From: Rhodospirillum centenum SW
Lineage (GTDB): Bacteria; Pseudomonadota; Alphaproteobacteria; Azospirillales; Azospirillaceae
Assembly: GCF_000016185.1 (NCBI RefSeq)
Contig: NC_011420.2
Span: 2,314,501-2,378,500, forward strand
Direction: 5' to 3'
DNA: 64,000 bases
This document shows positions 25,243 to 51,521 of the stretch, one piece after another. How positions within the stretch are numbered: position 1 is the stretch's first letter; every line of letters starts with the position of its first letter. The position numbers and the translations under genes are program-made. The notes below the pieces were generated by a model. That model ran no database searches. It had not been told where the DNA came from and was given only the letters and a program-made list of their open reading frames with translations.

Positions 25243-28137
25243 TCAGCCGCCGACCAGCAGCGCCACCGGCAGGGGTGCCAGCAGCCGGCCCACGGGCAGG
25301 CGGCCGTCGCCCGGCAGCGGCAGGGTCGCCCCGGTCAGCAGGTCGCGCAGCGCCGTGATCCCGCCCGGGTCGGGCAGGACCAGCGCGGTGTCCGCCCACG
25401 CCTCCGCCGGAACGGCCGGCCGCTCCGCCCCCGGACCCAGCAGCGGCAGCACCAGCCGCGGCGCCACCGTGAGGGCGAGGCGCCCCTCCCGCCGGCGCAG
25501 GAAGGCCATGACCCGGTCGGCCTGCGGGCCGACGGTCTCCACCGGCAGATAGTCGCCCAGGGCGAACAGGGCCGGGTCGTCGCAGCGCAGGCGCAGGCCC
25601 GTGGCCCAGACATGCTGCTTGATGCGGCCGTCGCGCCAGTGCGCCAGGAGTTCCTCCGCGGGAACCTCGGCGCGCAGGGAGGCGGCCAGCGCCGCCCAGT
25701 CCGGATCGCGCCGGTTGTCCGGATCGACCAGGGAGAAGTCCCAGTATTCCGTGCCCTGGTAGAGGTCCGGCACGCCCGGGCTGGTCAGGGTCAGCAGCAC
25801 CTGCGACAGCCCGTTGACGGCGCCGGCCGGGGCGATCAGGGCGACGAACCCGGCCATGTCCTCCAGGAACGCCGCCGAGCGTTCCGGGTCCAGGATCGCG
25901 CGGACGAAGCGTTCCAGCGCCTCCTCGTACCCGGTGTCGGGCATGGCCCAGTTGGAGCGGTACTTGGACTCGCGCACCGCCTTCAGCATGTAGCCGTGCA
26001 CGCGGTCGGCCAGCGCGGCCAGCCCGTCCGCGTCGGCCGGGTCCAGGTGCAGCGGCCAGGCCCCGGCCAGAGTCTGGTACAGCAGGTACTCGTCATTGCG
26101 GCCGGGCGCGGGACGCCCCTCGATCTCCCGCTTCTTCAGGCGGTTCATGCGGGACCAGCGGACCACCCGCCGGCCCCATTCCTCCGGCAGTTCGGACAGC
26201 ACGTCGATCCGCACCCGCGTGTCCGCGCCGCGCTTGTGGTCGTGGGTCGCCAGGGTGACGAGCTGGTGCGGCCAGCGCCGCAGCCGCTCCTGGTTGGCGC
26301 GGTGGAAGGCGGCCGGGCTGACGCCGAAACGGTCGGGATCGCCCCCCACCTCGTTCAGGGAGACCAGCCGGGCGTAGCGGTAGAACAAGGTGTCCTCCAC
26401 CGACTTCGCCATCACCGGGCCGGTGAGCTGCTGCGCCTTCATGGCGAAGCGGGCCACGTCCTCCGCCCGGTAGCCGGGGCGGCCGTCGCGGACAAGGTCG
26501 GTGGTCAGCGCCGCGGCCACGAAGTCGTAGACGGACAGGTCCACGGCCGCGGCGGCCGCCTTGCGGGCGCGGCCGACCGCCCAGTCGATGTAGCGCCGGT
26601 CCTCGTCCGCCACCTGCTCCCCGGTGACATAGGTGCGGTAGACCTGGAACTGGGCCACGATGTCGGTCAGGGCGCGGCGGATGCCGGTCAGGGTATGGTC
26701 GCGGCTGGCCCAGCTCTGCTGGGCGATGCCGTGCAGCTCCCGCGCCAGCACGTTCAGTTCGGCCGAGAGATTGCGCGCCAGGATCAGCCGCTTCGCCTCC
26801 AGCAGCATCTCCTCATAGGGTGCTTCACGCCCGAGGAACTGCTCGTAGGTCTCCGTCAGGGCCGCCTCGGCCGCGGGATCGACGTAGAGCCCGGCGGCCA
26901 TCACCATGAACTCGTAGCCGGTGGTGCCGGCCACCGGCCATTCCTCCCGCAGGTGCTCGTGGCGGGCCAGGATCTTCTCCACCACCACGTAGAGCGGTTC
27001 GGACAGGCGCGCCGCCCCGGAACCGGCCGGGGCCGCGGCGCCGGGCCGGTCGGTCAGGTAGGCGGCGCGGGTCTGGAGCTGCTCGCAGTAGGCGCGGGGA
27101 TCGTAGAGCCCGTCGATATGGTCGATGCGCAGGCCCTGGAGCTTGCCCTCCCCGATCAGCCGGAAGACGAGCTGGTGGCTCAGCTCGAACAGGTCGGGCC
27201 GCTCCATGCGCAGCCCGGCCAGTTCGTTGACGTCGAAGAAGCGGCGGTAGTTGATCTCGTCCGCCGCCACCCGCCAGAAGGCGACGCGGTAGGACTGCCG
27301 CTCCAGCAGCCCGTGCAGATCCTGGAAGCTGGCCGGATCGTCCGGGCGGCCGTTGATCTGCGCGATCATGCCCTCGATGGCGGCGCGGACGGGGGCGCTC
27401 TCCTCCACCAGCCGGGCGAGGCGGGACTTCAGCTCGTCCGCCTCCCGCCGCAGCAGGGCCTGACGCTGCACGGTGGAGCCGCCCGGGTCGAGCGCGGCGA
27501 AGGCGGTCGCCAGCCCGCCCAGGCGCTGGCGGTCGTCGCCGGCCTCCACCGTTTCCGCCGCAAGGCGCAGCAGGCGCGGATACTCCTTGAGGCAGAGCGG
27601 GAAGCGGTGCGCGAAATAGCGCACGCTGAAGGCCCCCTCGGCCAGCGAGAGCACCAGCTCGCCGCGCTCCAGCACGGCACCGTACTGGTCGCCCAGCACG
27701 GGCAGCAGCAGCCGTCCGTCGGCCCCGGCCTCCCAGTTGATGTCGAAGAAGGGGGCGTAGGGGCTGGCCCGACCCCACTCCAGCACGTCCAGCCACCAGG
27801 GATTGTCGTCGCCGCCCACCCCCATGTGGTTGGGCACGAAGTCCAGGATCAGCCCCAGGCCGTGCGCGTGCAGGGCCGCGACCAGGGCGTCGAAGGCGGC
27901 CTCGTCCCCGATTTCCGGGTTCAGGGCGGCGTGGTCGATGATGTCGTAGCCGTGCGCCGAGCCGGAGCGGGCGCGCAGGAAGGGGGAGGCGTAGACATGG
28001 CTGATCCCCAGCGCCGCGAAATAGGGAACCAGGGCGCGCACGGCGTCGAAGCCGAAGCCGGCGCGCAGTTGCAGCCGCACCGTGGCGCGCGGCACGGCGG
28101 GAATGGGCGGCGGGGTCTGCGCGTCGGCCGTGGTCAT
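25243..28137 (-). CDS. treY: Maltooligosyl trehalose synthase
   Basis: TreY isomerises the reducing end of maltooligosaccharides to a trehalose linkage. The 964-residue GH13 enzyme shows TYRLQL-like ATVRLQLRAGFGFDAVR at the start, YASPFLRARSGSAHGYDI, ILDFVPNHMG, the nucleophile aspartate in LRIDHIDGLYDPRAY and the acid/base glutamate in VVVEKILARHE, plus the long helical inserts unique to TreY. GGAGG is five bases before the ATG. It is the last gene of glgX - receiver-like gene - treY. The partner hydrolase TreZ, which releases trehalose, is not in the window. Confidence 0.96.
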   Translation of the reverse strand: MTTADAQTPPPIPAVPRATVRLQLRAGFGFDAVRALVPYFAALGISHVYASPFLRARSGSAHGYDIIDHAALNPEIGDEAAFDALVAALHAHGLGLILDFVPNHMGVGGDDNPWWLDVLEWGRASPYAPFFDINWEAGADGRLLLPVLGDQYGAVLERGELVLSLAEGAFSVRYFAHRFPLCLKEYPRLLRLAAETVEAGDDRQRLGGLATAFAALDPGGSTVQRQALLRREADELKSRLARLVEESAPVRAAIEGMIAQINGRPDDPASFQDLHGLLERQSYRVAFWRVAADEINYRRFFDVNELAGLRMERPDLFELSHQLVFRLIGEGKLQGLRIDHIDGLYDPRAYCEQLQTRAAYLTDRPGAAAPAGSGAARLSEPLYVVVEKILARHEHLREEWPVAGTTGYEFMVMAAGLYVDPAAEAALTETYEQFLGREAPYEEMLLEAKRLILARNLSAELNVLARELHGIAQQSWASRDHTLTGIRRALTDIVAQFQVYRTYVTGEQVADEDRRYIDWAVGRARKAAAAAVDLSVYDFVAAALTTDLVRDGRPGYRAEDVARFAMKAQQLTGPVMAKSVEDTLFYRYARLVSLNEVGGDPDRFGVSPAAFHRANQERLRRWPHQLVTLATHDHKRGADTRVRIDVLSELPEEWGRRVVRWSRMNRLKKREIEGRPAPGRNDEYLLYQTLAGAWPLHLDPADADGLAALADRVHGYMLKAVRESKYRSNWAMPDTGYEEALERFVRAILDPERSAAFLEDMAGFVALIAPAGAVNGLSQVLLTLTSPGVPDLYQGTEYWDFSLVDPDNRRDPDWAALAASLRAEVPAEELLAHWRDGRIKQHVWATGLRLRCDDPALFALGDYLPVETVGPQADRVMAFLRRREGRLALTVAPRLVLPLLGPGAERPAVPAEAWADTALVLPDPGGITALRDLLTGATLPLPGDGRLPVGRLLAPLPVALLVGG

Positions 28138-28245
28138 GTTGCCTCCGGGGGCGTCGGGTCGGTTCAGGAAACGCCGGAGCCGCCGGAAAGGTCGCCCGCC
28201 GCGGACGGGGATTCGGGAGCGGTGCGGGACCGCCCCGGACAGGTC

Positions 28246-29244
28246 TCAGGACGCGGCAGGATCGCCGGGCGGCGGTCCCTGCGACTCGGCCTTGGCCTGT
28301 GCCATCTGTTCGAGCCGGCTGCGGTAGCCGGTAACAGCGGCCTGGACCTCCTGTTCCAGCGCCGCCATGTCGCTGCGCCGGGCGGTCAGGGCCGCCACGC
28401 CCATGGCGGCGCGGCGCAGCGCCGTGGGGTTGTCGTAAGCCCGGCCGGGATTCGCCTTGAGCCGGTCCAGATGCGCGTGCAGGGCGCGCACGAAGGTCTC
28501 CACATGCGGGCGCATGTCCGGGTCGTGGACCCGGCGCAGCAGGTCGTCCGCCACCGGCCCGACCCGGGCCAGATGCTCCACCGCCATCCTGTCGGGCGGC
28601 TCCTGCGCCAGTCCGGGCAGGGCGAAGTCCACCAGGAAGGCGATGTGGAAACCGTGACGCAGCACCTTCTGCGCGTCGATCGCCTCCAGCGCCGTCGCCA
28701 TCTGGGCGGCGAGGTCGGTCCGCTCATGGCCGGCCAGCGCCTTCAGCCGCAGGGTGTTCGGCACCTCGATCAGGGGGTTGGCCGGCCCGTCGCGGGGGGT
28801 CTTGCGGCGGTCGGGACCGATATAGTCGCTGGTGACGACGAAGCTCTTGCGGGCATGGACCAGTCCGTACACCCGGTCCAGCACCTGCTTGGTGGAGAAG
28901 GGCTTCACCATCAGGTCGTCGGCGCCCGAGGCGGTGAAGCGCAGCAGCACCTGCTGCGTCGCCTGCCAGGTGGTGGCGACGACGCAGACGAAGGGGTTGG
29001 TGGCGAACTGGCCGTGCCGCAGGTGGCTGACGAAGCGCAGCGTCTCCCCCTCCGGATGGTCGGCCTCGATGAAGATCAGATCCGGCGTCGTCGAAGCCAT
29101 GGCCGCCACCAGTTCGGCGACGGTGGAGAATTCCTGGATCTTGTCGATCCCCGCCCGGGCCAGGATGCTGCGCAGGATGCGCCGCGTGTTCATCTCGCGG
29201 TCGACCAGGAAGCAGTTGACCGGGTGGAGATCGATCTCAGCCAT
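28246..29244 (-). CDS. Degenerate receiver-domain protein with helical C-terminus
   Basis: The 332-residue protein begins with a receiver-like fold (about 8-125): CFLVDREMNTRRILRSIL, PDLIFIEADHPEGETL and DDLMVKPFS with the conserved K114. The phospho-accepting aspartate position is occupied by E60 (strand IFIE where IFLD is normal), and the acidic pair at the first strand is reduced to D15, so it should not be phosphorylated in the usual way; glutamate may mimic the active state. Residues ~150-330 are mostly helical and unknown. The ATG lies inside the last eight bases of glgX, so its translation depends on glgX. Its link with glgX and treY suggests a regulatory or scaffold role in storage-sugar metabolism. 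Confidence 0.8.
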   Translation of the reverse strand: MAEIDLHPVNCFLVDREMNTRRILRSILARAGIDKIQEFSTVAELVAAMASTTPDLIFIEADHPEGETLRFVSHLRHGQFATNPFVCVVATTWQATQQVLLRFTASGADDLMVKPFSTKQVLDRVYGLVHARKSFVVTSDYIGPDRRKTPRDGPANPLIEVPNTLRLKALAGHERTDLAAQMATALEAIDAQKVLRHGFHIAFLVDFALPGLAQEPPDRMAVEHLARVGPVADDLLRRVHDPDMRPHVETFVRALHAHLDRLKANPGRAYDNPTALRRAAMGVAALTARRSDMAALEQEVQAAVTGYRSRLEQMAQAKAESQGPPPGDPAAS

Positions 29245-31693
29245 GGCGGTCCACCGCTCCGCTCCCGCCGCCGGTCCCCTCCCCCTCTTCCCCGGTCGCG
29301 GCCTCCGTCACGGGGACCGTCTCCGGCGGCGCCACCGGATCAGCGGCGGCCGAGAGCGGATCGGCAGGCGGTGTCCGGGGGGGCGGCCCTTCGCCCGGTG
29401 GCCCCGCCTGGGACGGCATCTCCGGCGTGGCGGCGTCATCCGCCGCGTCTGCCGGGGACGCGGGTCCGGTCTCCTCCGGGGGCTCCGGCGGGGTTTCCGC
29501 TGGCGGGGGCTCCGCGGGGGCCGGGAGAACCGTCTGGAAATGCGCCGGCGGCTCCACCAGCTCCATCAGCAGGGTCGTCCGCGCCGGCACCTCCATCTCG
29601 CGGCCGCTCTCCTGGAAGCCGGGCGGCGGCAGGCCAACCGGATCGCCGGTGTCCAGCAGCGCCCGCCAGGCGGTGCCCCCCGGCACCTGCGGCAGGCGGA
29701 AGAAGACGGCCTCGGTGTGGGCGTTGACGATCAGCAGCAGCACGCTGTCCATGGCATGGCTGCCGTCGGGGTTCAGATACCGCCCGGCGCGGCCGTTCAG
29801 CAGCAGCCCCAGGCAGCGGGCGTGGGTGTCGCGCCATTCATCGGGGGTCTTCTCCAGACCCCGGGGGGTCACCCAGGTGATGTCCCTGACCCCGTCGGGA
29901 GAGCGTTCCTCACCGTGCAGGAAGCGGCCGCGGCGCAGGACCGGATGCGTCCGGCGCAAGGTGGTGAGCCGGCGGACGAAGGCGGTCATGTCGCGCGCCT
30001 CCGGGCCGGCGCCGGTGCCGGCCCAGTCCACCCAGCTCACGCCGTTGTCCTGGCAGTAGGCATTGTTGTTGCCGCCCTGGGTGCGCAGGATCTCGTCCCC
30101 GCCCAGCAGCATCGGCGTTCCCTGCGACAGGAACAGGGTCGCCAGCATGTTGCGCGCCTGACGCAGGCGCAGGGCGCGCACCCCGGCGATCTCGGTCGGG
30201 CCTTCAAGGCCGTAGGCGGAGGAATAGTTGGCGTCGTGGCCGTCGCGGTTGCCCTCGCCGTTCGCCTCGTTGTGCTTGCGCGTGTAGGAGACGACGTCGT
30301 TCAGCGTGAAGCCGTCATGGCTGGTGACGAAGTTGATGCTGGACCAGGACCGGCGGGCACCGCGCTCGAACAGGTCGGCCGACGCGGTCAGCCGGGCCGC
30401 CAGTTCCGGCAGCATGCCCTCGTCCCCGCGCCAGTAGCGGCGCACGGTGTCGCGGAAGCGGTCGTTCCATTCCGCCCAGCCGGCCGGGAACTGGCCGACC
30501 CGGTAGCCGCCGGGGCCGACGTCCCAGGGCTCTGCGATCAGTTTCACCCGCGACAGCACCGGGTCCTGGCGCACGGCGTCCAGGAAGCCGCTGCCGGGGT
30601 CGAAGCCGTTCGCCTCGCGCGCCAGCGCGGTGGCCAGGTCGAAGCGGAACCCGTCCACATGCATGTCCGTGACCCAGTAGCGCAGGCTGTCCATCACCAT
30701 CTGCAACACGCGGGGATGGGTCAGGTTCAGCGTGTTCCCGGTGCCGGTGTAGTCCGTATAGTAGCGCGGATCGCCGCTGTTCAGCAGATAGTAGCTGGCG
30801 TTGTCGATGCCACGGAAGCTGATCGTGGGGCCGAGATGGTTGCCCTCGCCCGTGTGGTTGTAGACCACGTCCAGGATCACCTCGATCCCGGCATCGTGCA
30901 GCCGGGCCACCATGGTCTTGAATTCCTTGGTGGAGGTGCCGCACATGTAGCTCGGCTCGGGGGCGAAGAAGCCGAAGGTCGCATACCCCCAGTAGTTGCG
31001 CAGCGACTTCTCCAGCAGGTGCCGGTCGTCGCTGAAGGCCTGCACCGGCAGCAGTTCGACCGCGGTGACGCCCAGGGCGCGCAGATGCTCGATCAGGCCG
31101 GGGGTGGCAAGGCCGGCGAAGGTGCCGCGCTGGCCCGGCGGCACCTGCGGGTGGCGCATGGTCAGACCGCGGACATGCGCCTCGTAGATCACCGTGTCGG
31201 TCCAGGGCACCGACGGCGCCCGCTCCGCCCCCCAGGTGAAGGCCGGGTCGATCACCCGGCACTTCGGCATGCCGCGGGCGTTGTCGCGCCGGTCGAAGGA
31301 CAGGTCCTGCCGGCTGGAGCCGACCCGGTAGCCGAAATGCGCGTCCGACCAGCGGATGCCCCCCACCAGCGACTTGGCATAGGGGTCCAGCACCAGCTTG
31401 TTCGGGTTGAAGCGGTGGCCGCGGGCGGGATCGTAGGGACCGTAGACGCGGTAGCCGTAGAGCAGGCCCGGCCGGGCCTGCGGCAGATAGCCGTGCCAGA
31501 TCTCGTCTGTGTATTCGGGCAGGACGACGCGGTCCATCTCCCGCGTGCCGCTTTCGTCAAAGAGGCAGAGTTCCACCCTCTCCGCATTGGCGGAGAACAG
31601 GGCGAAGTTGACGCCTGAGCCGTCCCAGGTCGCCCCGAGCGGAAAGGGGCGCCCCGGCCAGACCGTGGTGCGGGCGGCACCGTTTGTTAGCAT
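29237..31693 (-). CDS. glgX: Glycogen debranching enzyme GlgX with long acidic/proline tail
   Basis: GlgX hydrolyses alpha-1,6 branches of phosphorylase-limited glycogen. The 818-residue protein has an N-terminal CBM48-like domain (PLGATWDGSGVNFALFSANA) and a GH13 catalytic domain with ILDVVYNHTGEG, the nucleophile in GFRFDLATAL, the acid/base glutamate in LIAEPWDVGPGGY and the transition-state stabiliser in VTSHDGFTLND. The last ~95 residues (encoded by about 29237-29524) are low-complexity Pro/Ala/Glu/Thr and lie outside the enzyme fold, an unusual addition. It is the first gene of a three-gene operon; GAGGA precedes the ATG. Confidence 0.96.
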   Translation of the reverse strand: MLTNGAARTTVWPGRPFPLGATWDGSGVNFALFSANAERVELCLFDESGTREMDRVVLPEYTDEIWHGYLPQARPGLLYGYRVYGPYDPARGHRFNPNKLVLDPYAKSLVGGIRWSDAHFGYRVGSSRQDLSFDRRDNARGMPKCRVIDPAFTWGAERAPSVPWTDTVIYEAHVRGLTMRHPQVPPGQRGTFAGLATPGLIEHLRALGVTAVELLPVQAFSDDRHLLEKSLRNYWGYATFGFFAPEPSYMCGTSTKEFKTMVARLHDAGIEVILDVVYNHTGEGNHLGPTISFRGIDNASYYLLNSGDPRYYTDYTGTGNTLNLTHPRVLQMVMDSLRYWVTDMHVDGFRFDLATALAREANGFDPGSGFLDAVRQDPVLSRVKLIAEPWDVGPGGYRVGQFPAGWAEWNDRFRDTVRRYWRGDEGMLPELAARLTASADLFERGARRSWSSINFVTSHDGFTLNDVVSYTRKHNEANGEGNRDGHDANYSSAYGLEGPTEIAGVRALRLRQARNMLATLFLSQGTPMLLGGDEILRTQGGNNNAYCQDNGVSWVDWAGTGAGPEARDMTAFVRRLTTLRRTHPVLRRGRFLHGEERSPDGVRDITWVTPRGLEKTPDEWRDTHARCLGLLLNGRAGRYLNPDGSHAMDSVLLLIVNAHTEAVFFRLPQVPGGTAWRALLDTGDPVGLPPPGFQESGREMEVPARTTLLMELVEPPAHFQTVLPAPAEPPPAETPPEPPEETGPASPADAADDAATPEMPSQAGPPGEGPPPRTPPADPLSAAADPVAPPETVPVTEAATGEEGEGTGGGSGAVDRHG

Positions 31694-49808: not shown

Positions 49809-51521
49809 TCACTCTCCAACCGTACCGCCGGCCGGGGCGTCGCCGCCGGCCCTTCCGCTTGCGATCGCCGCCGCGGGCGCCAGGGCGCGGTTGCCCTTGC
49901 CCTGGCGCTTGGCGGCATACATGGCATGGTCGCCGCGGTCCAGCAGCCCCTGGGCCGGCTCACCGCCGCCGCCGGCATAGAGCGCCACGCCGATGGAAAC
50001 GCCCAGCGGCCGGTCCGGCGCGGCCGAGAGGGGGCGCAGGAACTCCGCCGCCTCGCGCAGCAGCCGGTCGGCCACCCGCAGGGCCTGGGCCTCGTCCACC
50101 CGCTCGATCCAGAGCACGAACTCGTCGCCGCCCAGCCGCGCCGTCAGGTCGCCCGGCCGGGCCAGCCGCACCAGCAGCGTGCCCACCGCCTGCAGCACCC
50201 CGTCGCCCGCCGTGTGGCCGAGCAGGTCGTTGACCGCCTTGAAGTTGTCCAGGTCGAAATAGAGCAGGGCGGAGGAACCGCCGCGGTGCCGCTCCAGCCG
50301 TTGCTCCAGCAGCTCCATGAAGGTGCGCCGGTTGTAGAGCCCGGTCAGCCCGTCGCGCTCGGACAGGGTCTTCAGCCGCTCCTGGTAGCGGGCCTGGGCG
50401 ACGGCGACGCCGACATGGTCGGCGATGGCCGACACCATGGAGATGTCGTCCGCGCTCCACGCCTCGGCGGCCGGGCGCCAGGCCAGGACCGCGCCGTTCA
50501 CCTCGTTGCGGAACAGGGTGCGCGCGGCCAGCAGGCGCACCGGCCCGGCCACCGCCTCGCAGCCCCCGGCACTCTCCGCTGCGGCGGCCAGCAGGGCCGG
50601 CAGCGCGTCCGCCGCCTCCGGCGGCAGCGTGCCCTGCCGCGCCGCGGGTCCGTAGCCCTCCCCCGCCCGGGCGAAGACCAGGACGCCGGCCGCGCCGGTG
50701 GCGTTCACCGCGACGCCGGCCGCGATCTCCAGCGTGCGGGTGGGGTCCACGTCGTCGCGGGTGGAGGAGACGATGAAGCCCAGATACTTCTCGCGCAGCC
50801 GGACCCGGGACAGCTCCATGCCGCGCAGGCGGGCGTCGGTGATGTCGCGGCAGGCGCCGCGCGCGCCCAGCCATTCCCCGCCCGGCCCGGTCAGCGGCAC
50901 GGCGGAGGAGATCAGGCAGGCCGGCTCGCCCGAGCGGTCGCGCAGCCAGACCTCCGTCCGCTCGATCGGCACCCGCGTGTCGAAGGGCAGCGGCTGGTCG
51001 GCGAACTCGGGCAGCACGAGGTCCGCGGGGTGCCGGCCCAGCAGCTCCTCCGCCCGGTAGCCGATGGCCCCGGCGGGGGAGACGAAGGCGAAGCGCCCGT
51101 CCGGCCCCGTCTCCCAGGCGAAGTCGGAGGAGATGTCCACCAGGTCCTTGTAGCGCTGGCGGGATTCGGTCAGGGCGTGGCGCAGCCGGCGCTCCAGCGT
51201 CACGTCGCGCCCCAGCAGCAGCACCTCGCCGTCCGGCAGGGGGACGGCCGCGAACTCCACGACGCCGGGACCGGAGCCGGTCGCCACCGGCACGGAGCGG
51301 GCGCTGTCCAGCAGCGGCCCGTCGCTGGCGACCCACCAGGACAGGTCCTCGCGCCAGGCGCCCCCGTCCGCGTCCAGCGGGGCGCAGCGGGCGTTGGCGG
51401 CGCGCACGGCACCGTCGGCCGCCAGCCGCAGGGCGGGGCCGGGCCAGCCGGCCAGGATGGCCGCCGCCTCAGTCCCCTCCAGGGGGGGCGGCGGGGCGGT
51501 CGGTACGGATTCTGTTTCCAC
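49809..51521 (-). CDS. PAS-GAF diguanylate cyclase
   Basis: The 570-residue cytoplasmic protein joins a degenerate N-terminal PAS-like region (1-110), a PAS domain (about 125-240, ISSDFAWETGPDGRFAFVSP), a GAF domain (about 265-395) and a GGDEF domain (about 396-550). The active site is intact as RLGGDEF at 462-468, with DLDNFKAVND for metal binding and an inhibitory site R455-x-x-D458 placed five residues before GGDEF, so it should make c-di-GMP and be product-inhibited. There is no membrane segment or EAL domain. Its signal is unknown. It is co-transcribed with a DUF2336 protein. Confidence 0.94.
   Translation of the reverse strand: METESVPTAPPPPLEGTEAAAILAGWPGPALRLAADGAVRAANARCAPLDADGGAWREDLSWWVASDGPLLDSARSVPVATGSGPGVVEFAAVPLPDGEVLLLGRDVTLERRLRHALTESRQRYKDLVDISSDFAWETGPDGRFAFVSPAGAIGYRAEELLGRHPADLVLPEFADQPLPFDTRVPIERTEVWLRDRSGEPACLISSAVPLTGPGGEWLGARGACRDITDARLRGMELSRVRLREKYLGFIVSSTRDDVDPTRTLEIAAGVAVNATGAAGVLVFARAGEGYGPAARQGTLPPEAADALPALLAAAAESAGGCEAVAGPVRLLAARTLFRNEVNGAVLAWRPAAEAWSADDISMVSAIADHVGVAVAQARYQERLKTLSERDGLTGLYNRRTFMELLEQRLERHRGGSSALLYFDLDNFKAVNDLLGHTAGDGVLQAVGTLLVRLARPGDLTARLGGDEFVLWIERVDEAQALRVADRLLREAAEFLRPLSAAPDRPLGVSIGVALYAGGGGEPAQGLLDRGDHAMYAAKRQGKGNRALAPAAAIASGRAGGDAPAGGTVGE

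Follow-up and report, generated by a model that had tools for sequence, protein, structure and literature searches.

A receiver-domain protein with a c-di-GMP-type arginine linker beside the glycogen and trehalose genes of Rhodospirillum centenum and its family

Introduction

In Rhodospirillum centenum SW a gene for a receiver-domain protein, here called X, lies between glgX and treY, two genes of glycogen and trehalose metabolism. We studied this locus within a stretch of 64,000 nucleotides (NC_011420.2, positions 2,314,501 to 2,378,500 of the forward strand; hereafter the window). What does a signalling domain respond to in such company, and does it act on its neighbours? A reading made from the sequence alone had noted Glu in place of the phosphorylated Asp, and proposed a switch or scaffold for storage-sugar flux that is always in an on-like state or senses something other than phosphate. 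The comparisons below point to the second of these options. We tentatively propose, at somewhat less than an even chance, that X is a signalling adaptor with a receiver fold, governed chiefly by cyclic dimeric guanosine monophosphate (c-di-GMP) rather than by phosphorylation, and tied to glycogen and trehalose enzymes; we infer both the binding of the messenger and the contact with an enzyme.

Results

The receiver domain and its phosphorylation site

The receiver family PF00072 matches residues 12-125 of X at 42.4 bits (cut-off 30.2, E 8.8e-11), and with a score above the cut-off the match is no chance resemblance. The AlphaFold2 model, with a mean predicted local distance difference test score (pLDDT) of 94.9, starts with a receiver fold, followed by a short hairpin (135-137/142-144), a short helix (164-169) and six helices between residues 178 and 321. 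Its receiver part superposes on CheY (3rvm; VIA-align Z 16.4, root-mean-square deviation (rmsd) 2.0, 128 residues aligned). X has this fold in common with canonical receivers such as CheY, KdpE and PhoB; unlike in these, the phosphorylation site is incomplete, and the linker and helical domain that follow lie outside known Pfam families.

The phosphorylation-site residues of X are E60 at the acceptor position, D15, R16, T92 and K114. A phosphorylatable response regulator carries Asp at the acceptor position, where the window protein has Glu; both switch residues, T92 and K114, are present. In CheY the corresponding roles fall to D13, a ligand of Mg, T87 and K109. The family match, the alignment and the model all bear out the sequence-only description of X as a receiver protein of 332 residues with E60, a single acid (D15) of the first-strand pair and a helical C-terminal domain.

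To place these residues in context, we used two alignments. A search with X of the 82 genomes of its GTDB family gave matches at E <= 1e-5 in 81, and the orthologue set consists of 80 genomes, R. centenum included; G047, which has no match, and G053, which has divergent copies only, were left out, and one row (G048, 196 residues) is truncated. The second alignment, of 51 rows, joins 32 family rows (the window protein and 31 of the 79 other orthologues, at least 280 residues long and less than 78% identical to each other) to 19 wider rows, namely 18 from other families and the second copy of family genome G077. The wider rows were preselected for the linker motif described below from 21 called relatives.

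Asp stands at position 60 in 77 of the 80 orthologues, Glu in two (R. centenum and G067) and Ser in one. The first-strand acid pair is incomplete throughout: position 15 is Asp or Glu in 80/80, and position 16, the second Mg-binding acid, is acidic in 0/80. K114 is kept in all 80, and position 92 is Thr or Ser in 73. The full phosphorylation set (both acids, Asp, Thr or Ser, and Lys) occurs in 0/32 family rows and 0/19 wider rows, and the wider rows vary at the individual residues, with Asp60 in 13, K114 in 15 and Thr or Ser at position 92 in 10. By these counts phosphorylation would in principle be open to most orthologues, if on an incomplete metal site; the window protein is a local Asp-to-Glu variant, Glu60 being no trait of the family.

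This bears on two explanations other than ours. X might be an orphan response regulator that is phosphorylated on Asp60 in most species, with the helical domain as output and R. centenum as a natural phospho-mimic. The near-constant Asp60, K114 and Thr or Ser at 92, and the 13 wider rows with Asp60, fit such a regulator; the residue matching CheY D13, acidic in none of the orthologues, does not, nor do the losses of T/S92 and K114 in the wider rows (10/19 and 15/19 kept), and we hold this explanation to be unlikely. Far less probable is the model of the sequence-only reading, a tethering scaffold for GlgX and TreY, its pseudo-receiver permanently on-like. It is built on the window protein, where E60, the missing second acid and a position between glgX and treY all agree with it; across the family Glu stands at the acceptor position in only two of the 80 proteins, treY lies directly downstream in one of 80 loci, and the invariant linker goes unexplained. 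An always on-like state therefore fails as a general rule, with Asp at exactly position 60 in 77/80 and at most two genomes of 80 that fit. A plain phospho-dead scaffold was also considered and rated low, because of the same Asp60 count. Sensing of something other than phosphate, in turn, gains support from the acid pair, incomplete in every orthologue, and from the linker, which is among the most conserved features of the alignment.

An invariant GPDRR linker of the c-di-GMP type

Directly behind the receiver, X carries the sequence GPDRR within a YxGPDRR motif; the linker consensus is FVVTxDYxGPDRRK...VPNTLRxKA. G143, P144, D145, R146, R147, R151 and P162 are identical in 80/80 orthologues, together with D109, K114 and P115 of the receiver. 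In all 51 rows of the second alignment R76, G107, D109, P115, G143, P144, R146, R147 and P162 are invariant. Since the wider rows were preselected for the motif, we also give an unselected count: of the 25 loci L075-L099, found in other families of the class, 23 carry a YxGPDRR-type motif, and the two deviants differ in one residue each, YIGPDRH (L077, the same site as L162) and YIGPCRR (L090, the same site as L175).

The motif is known from the Cle proteins of Caulobacter. The part of Nesper et al. 2017 (PMC5677366) on which we draw describes these as CheY-like receivers that are activated by c-di-GMP at a C-terminal arginine-rich peptide, and gives the experimentally defined motif as [Y/F]XGP[D/E][R/K]R in tandem. 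In CleD, c-di-GMP binding is strongly reduced or lost with R156A and about 5-fold lower with R169A. An arginine in alpha4 is required by CleD for both localisation and function; CleA needs it for localisation and in part for function. The phosphorylation-site residues are dispensable for Cle activity, and CleD has Glu at that site (allele cleD E70A).

When the 38-residue linker of X was compared with the PDB sequence set, a single chain was found at E <= 10, the CleD peptide 6sft, in which YVGPDRRR aligns with YIGPDRRK of X. Since the two motif halves are 13 residues apart in 6sft, R147 of X was assigned to R156 of CleD. The second CleD half, DYKGPRKRK, lies 13 residues on and has no YxGP counterpart in X. 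At its place stands VPNTLRxK (PNxL), in which P162, 18 residues past P144, is kept in 80/80 orthologues and 51/51 rows. In alpha4 of X, R102 (Arg or Lys in 80/80) lies 42 residues past position 60, compared with 43-44 for the Cle alpha4 arginine, with which it is equated by spacing only.

X thus resembles the Cle proteins, as far as the source describes them, in the receiver followed at once by YxGPDRR, in the alpha4 arginine at a similar spacing, and in the Glu at the phosphorylation site that it shares with CleD. It differs from them in its single motif copy, in VPNTLRxK as second half, in a helical domain of about 145 residues, and in its sugar-enzyme neighbours. Judged by sequence, X is close to Cle in principle and no member of Cle by the tandem criterion; lacking the tandem motif, it is not classed here with the Cle proteins.

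The helical C-terminal domain

Modelled alone (residues 155-332), the C-terminal part of X reaches a pLDDT of 93.9 in AlphaFold2. Pfam scans of the 51 members gave no family over this domain apart from GlnR_1st in a single member, a weak and isolated match (E 0.0021), and a Foldseek search of the PDB with the C-terminal model alone gave 0 matches at E <= 0.001, the best having E 0.18. VIA-align Z scores reached at most 11.0 (rmsd 2.4, 102 residues aligned), the usual range for generic helical bundles, and the resemblance to histidine-phosphotransfer bundles was at Foldseek E 0.6 and weaker. The C-terminal alignment, compared with solved structures, matches helical proteins that are by name mostly designed or coiled; these, including the best PDB sequence match, 8qae (sc-apCC-6-SLLA, E 2.3e-4), were judged composition matches and set aside, and we assign no fold family to the domain.

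Gene neighbourhood in the family

The three genes of the locus are open frames on the minus strand in the order glgX, X, treY, and the start codon of X lies within the 3' end of glgX, both order and start as the sequence-only reading had them; the overlap is 8 nt (Table 1). The 8-nt overlap is present in 12/14 loci of four genera (g1, g6, g7, g12). Four values in the list of glgX-X distances (-1029, -1074, -85, -85) are artefacts.

Table 1. Features of the glgX - X - treY locus, in window coordinates
Feature	Position	Strand	Evidence
Gene X: receiver domain, YxGPDRR linker and helical C-terminal domain, 332 residues	28246..29244	-	Open reading frame; PF00072
Receiver domain of X, residues 12-125	28870..29211	-	PF00072; VIA-align vs CheY 3rvm
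E60 codon of X, phospho-acceptor position	29065..29067	-	Orthologue alignment (n=80)
YIGPDRR motif of X, residues 141-147	28804..28824	-	Orthologue alignment; aligned with first half of CleD peptide 6sft
PNTLRLK of X, residues 162-168, where Cle has its second motif half	28741..28761	-	Orthologue and wider alignments
Helical C-terminal domain of X, residues 178-321	28282..28713	-	AlphaFold2 model
glgX, glycogen debranching enzyme	29237..31693	-	TIGR02100, 1047 bits (cut-off 640.9)
treY, malto-oligosyltrehalose synthase, 108 nt downstream of X	25243..28137	-	TIGR02401, 967 bits (cut-off 498.65)

Across the family, glgX stands directly upstream of X on the same strand in 67/80 loci, from 9 of 13 genera. 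The gene directly downstream is malQ in 46 loci, treZ in 11 and treY in one (58/80), and X adjoins at least one alpha-glucan enzyme directly in 72/80. In Azospirillum-type genomes the common order is treS/maltokinase-glgB-glgX-X-malQ-bfr; elsewhere it is glgX-X-treZ-(malQ)-(treY). Four genomes of genus g4 and one of g8 have only malQ directly beside X, and X and treY are direct neighbours in the window only. Within the family, then, the coupling of X to glycogen and trehalose genes that had been read from the window holds widely and the neighbourhood is kept, and of the two features that the sequence-only reading had put forward for checking in homologues it is the Glu that is not.

Could the neighbourhood be inherited synteny without a functional link, with X acting cell-wide in c-di-GMP signalling or motility, as Cle proteins do? 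Such an explanation would accommodate the family genomes in which X lies apart from these genes (seven of genus g11 and one of g9), and the relatives in other families that stand beside other genes. It is strained by the breadth of the pairing, since glgX-X spans 9/13 genera against four (g1, g6, g7, g12) for the EamA1-glgX pair, and by the downstream enzyme, which changes yet stays in the same pathway. Weighing this together with the flagellar data below, we regard inherited synteny as rather unlikely.

Several observations concern individual loci. The X regions of genus g11 (L055, L056, L141-L145) contain no glgX; the genes after X in L055 and L056 belong to one cluster, and the one in L055 encodes a cation-efflux protein. 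In genus g5, G053 has five divergent long-form matches, on L069 and other contigs, and no close orthologue of X, and G052 has the order glgX-X-treZ-malQ-treY. In L007, L010, L012, L013 and L014 glgB and glgX are separated by two small genes; the pair in L013 matches an MntA antitoxin family (below cut-off) and a HepT-like ribonuclease, and a toxin-antitoxin pair seems to have been inserted into the glycogen operon. The treZ gene of the R. centenum trehalose pathway lies outside the window at genome positions 2182968-2184605 (+), about 160 kb away, in an open frame of 1866 residues with room for a fusion protein.

Relatives outside the family

We examined 20 regions of 3.9-20 kb around X homologues in 19 genomes of other families. 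Gene calling was poor in L170 and L173, and the homologues in L170, L173 and L174 were uncalled and read by coordinates; for these reasons the regions were also searched at the DNA level with tblastn. Ten neighbour proteins, nine of them from the 20 regions, could be named by Pfam; they belong to different families, and two are sugar-related (a PfkB kinase and triosephosphate isomerase). In three regions (L163, L172, L179) the long-form protein, that is X with its helical domain, occurs as tandem duplicates, which suggests diversification and possibly pairing.

The link of X to glycogen and trehalose genes is a trait of one bacterial family. An older signalling protein was probably recruited to these enzymes in the Azospirillum family. 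Homologues scattered without sugar-metabolism neighbours, which the sequence-only reading had named as grounds for refutation, are what we find outside the family, in all 20 regions, and at 8/80 loci within it; they are not what we find at the other 72. In open-access literature (PMC titles and abstract openings, with most subscription papers outside this scope) we found no paper describing X.

Short CheY-like relatives and the receiver tree

Alphaproteobacteria also encode short tandem-motif CheY-like proteins of 165-250 residues, in which, as in X, the receiver is followed by a linker, here of the type FVRTxxYFGPDRRR. Unlike X, they mostly carry a second motif copy, have no helical domain and form a separate receiver clade. 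Among 20 such proteins fetched, 18 have the first motif half, and in 16 of the 18 a second, YxGxxRR-like half was recognised by eye; the two without a strict motif were excluded from the tandem count and from the tree. The R. centenum genome encodes one short tandem-motif protein (L184). In a tree of receiver domains built without the motif, 17 long forms make up one clade (100/99) and 19 short forms another (80/89), and the branch that unites long forms, short forms and two other receivers is weak (71/69). The Caulobacter Cle receivers were left out of this tree.

GGDEF proteins, motility genes and GlgX

Of 385 evenly drawn alphaproteobacterial genomes, 50 were read by eye as carrying the long form (E <= 1e-30, at most 5 candidates scored per genome); their GGDEF and FliM status was scored by eye. 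GGDEF proteins are encoded by 50/50 of these genomes compared with 276/385 overall (hypergeometric 1.5e-8), and FliM by 44/50 compared with 211/385 (1.0e-7), both values ignoring kinship and genome size. The FliM association leaves a motility role standing as a rival, but a purely motor-bound role is argued against by six long-form genomes that give no FliM match at E <= 1e-8; five of the six are listed as at least 98% complete. The R. centenum genome has 14 GGDEF matches. Within the window, a frame of 570 residues at 49809-51521 (-) contains a GGDEF domain (genome positions 2364393-2364857), a putative c-di-GMP synthase about 20 kb from X.

A direct effect of c-di-GMP on glycogen debranching has a precedent. 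According to the part of PMC9530166 used here, Streptomyces GlgX is activated by c-di-GMP directly on the enzyme, through the residues of an ExR(X)6R motif. The Streptomyces venezuelae enzyme (7u39) thus shares with the role proposed for X that c-di-GMP acts on glycogen debranching; as described there, the enzyme itself binds the messenger, unlike the adaptor proposed here. In a hand-read alignment the window GlgX has V, P and W at the positions of Streptomyces E47, R49 and R56, and so lacks the ExR(X)6R residues. Direct c-di-GMP binding by this enzyme in the Streptomyces manner therefore appears unlikely, and c-di-GMP control here would need another receptor.

Discussion

Our preferred reading, X as an adaptor controlled mainly by c-di-GMP, would work as follows. 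The messenger would bind at the YxGPDRR linker, with the PNxLxxK stretch perhaps supplying the remainder of the site, and would alter the alpha4-beta5-alpha5 face of the receiver and the packing of the helical domain. The helical domain would then contact an enzyme of the cluster, with GlgX as the first candidate and MalQ or TreZ next, and this contact would tune glycogen breakdown towards trehalose. In R. centenum, E60 and R16 may keep the receiver near its active shape, in which case c-di-GMP would be the sole input. X may in this way be a scaffold or switch that acts on the glycogen and trehalose enzymes.

Several results weigh against this proposal. Those on phosphorylation are that Asp60 in 77/80 and K114 in 80/80 orthologues would be compatible with phosphorylation, and that 10/32 family rows keep Asp60 together with the Lys, the Thr or Ser, the acid at position 15 and an acid at position 17. 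As to the linker, the match to 6sft has E 0.21, by itself not significant, and is its sole match to a solved peptide; the motif is present in a single copy in X and in all 51 rows, where Cle has two; the alpha4 arginine is kept in just 10/19 wider rows; and the receivers of the X type form their own clade (100/99) rather than nesting among the tandem-motif proteins. Genome size and kinship confound the co-occurrence with GGDEF proteins. Two further c-di-GMP contacts of the Streptomyces enzyme, R438 and R579, do align with Arg in the window GlgX by hand count. The gene neighbourhood has its exceptions too: GlgX, TreY, TreZ, MalQ, GlgB or TreS neighbours were found in 0/20 other-family regions, whether among called genes or in the tblastn search of the DNA (E <= 1e-5); 8/80 family loci have no glycogen or trehalose neighbour of X; in the seven g11 genomes X follows deoA, and each has one lower-scoring glgX match elsewhere in the genome; and G057 has X and no glgX match at E <= 1e-150.

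A bolder form of the c-di-GMP reading, which we consider doubtful, is that X founds a class of c-di-GMP receptor, in which a receiver and a half-Cle arginine motif, completed by PNxLxxK, are joined to a new helical effector that binds and switches GlgX, MalQ or TreZ in the Azospirillum family. Control of glycogen breakdown by c-di-GMP would then have been invented a second time, independently, and by way of an adaptor where the first acts on the enzyme itself.

If c-di-GMP does control X, a receiver domain would have traded phosphate for a nucleotide ligand, and a function would be found for an uncharacterised protein family spread over the Alphaproteobacteria. The messenger of the choice between motile and sessile life would, in addition, govern how stored sugar is used and how trehalose, a protectant, is made in a bacterial family, Azospirillum and its kin, whose members include some that encyst and colonise roots.

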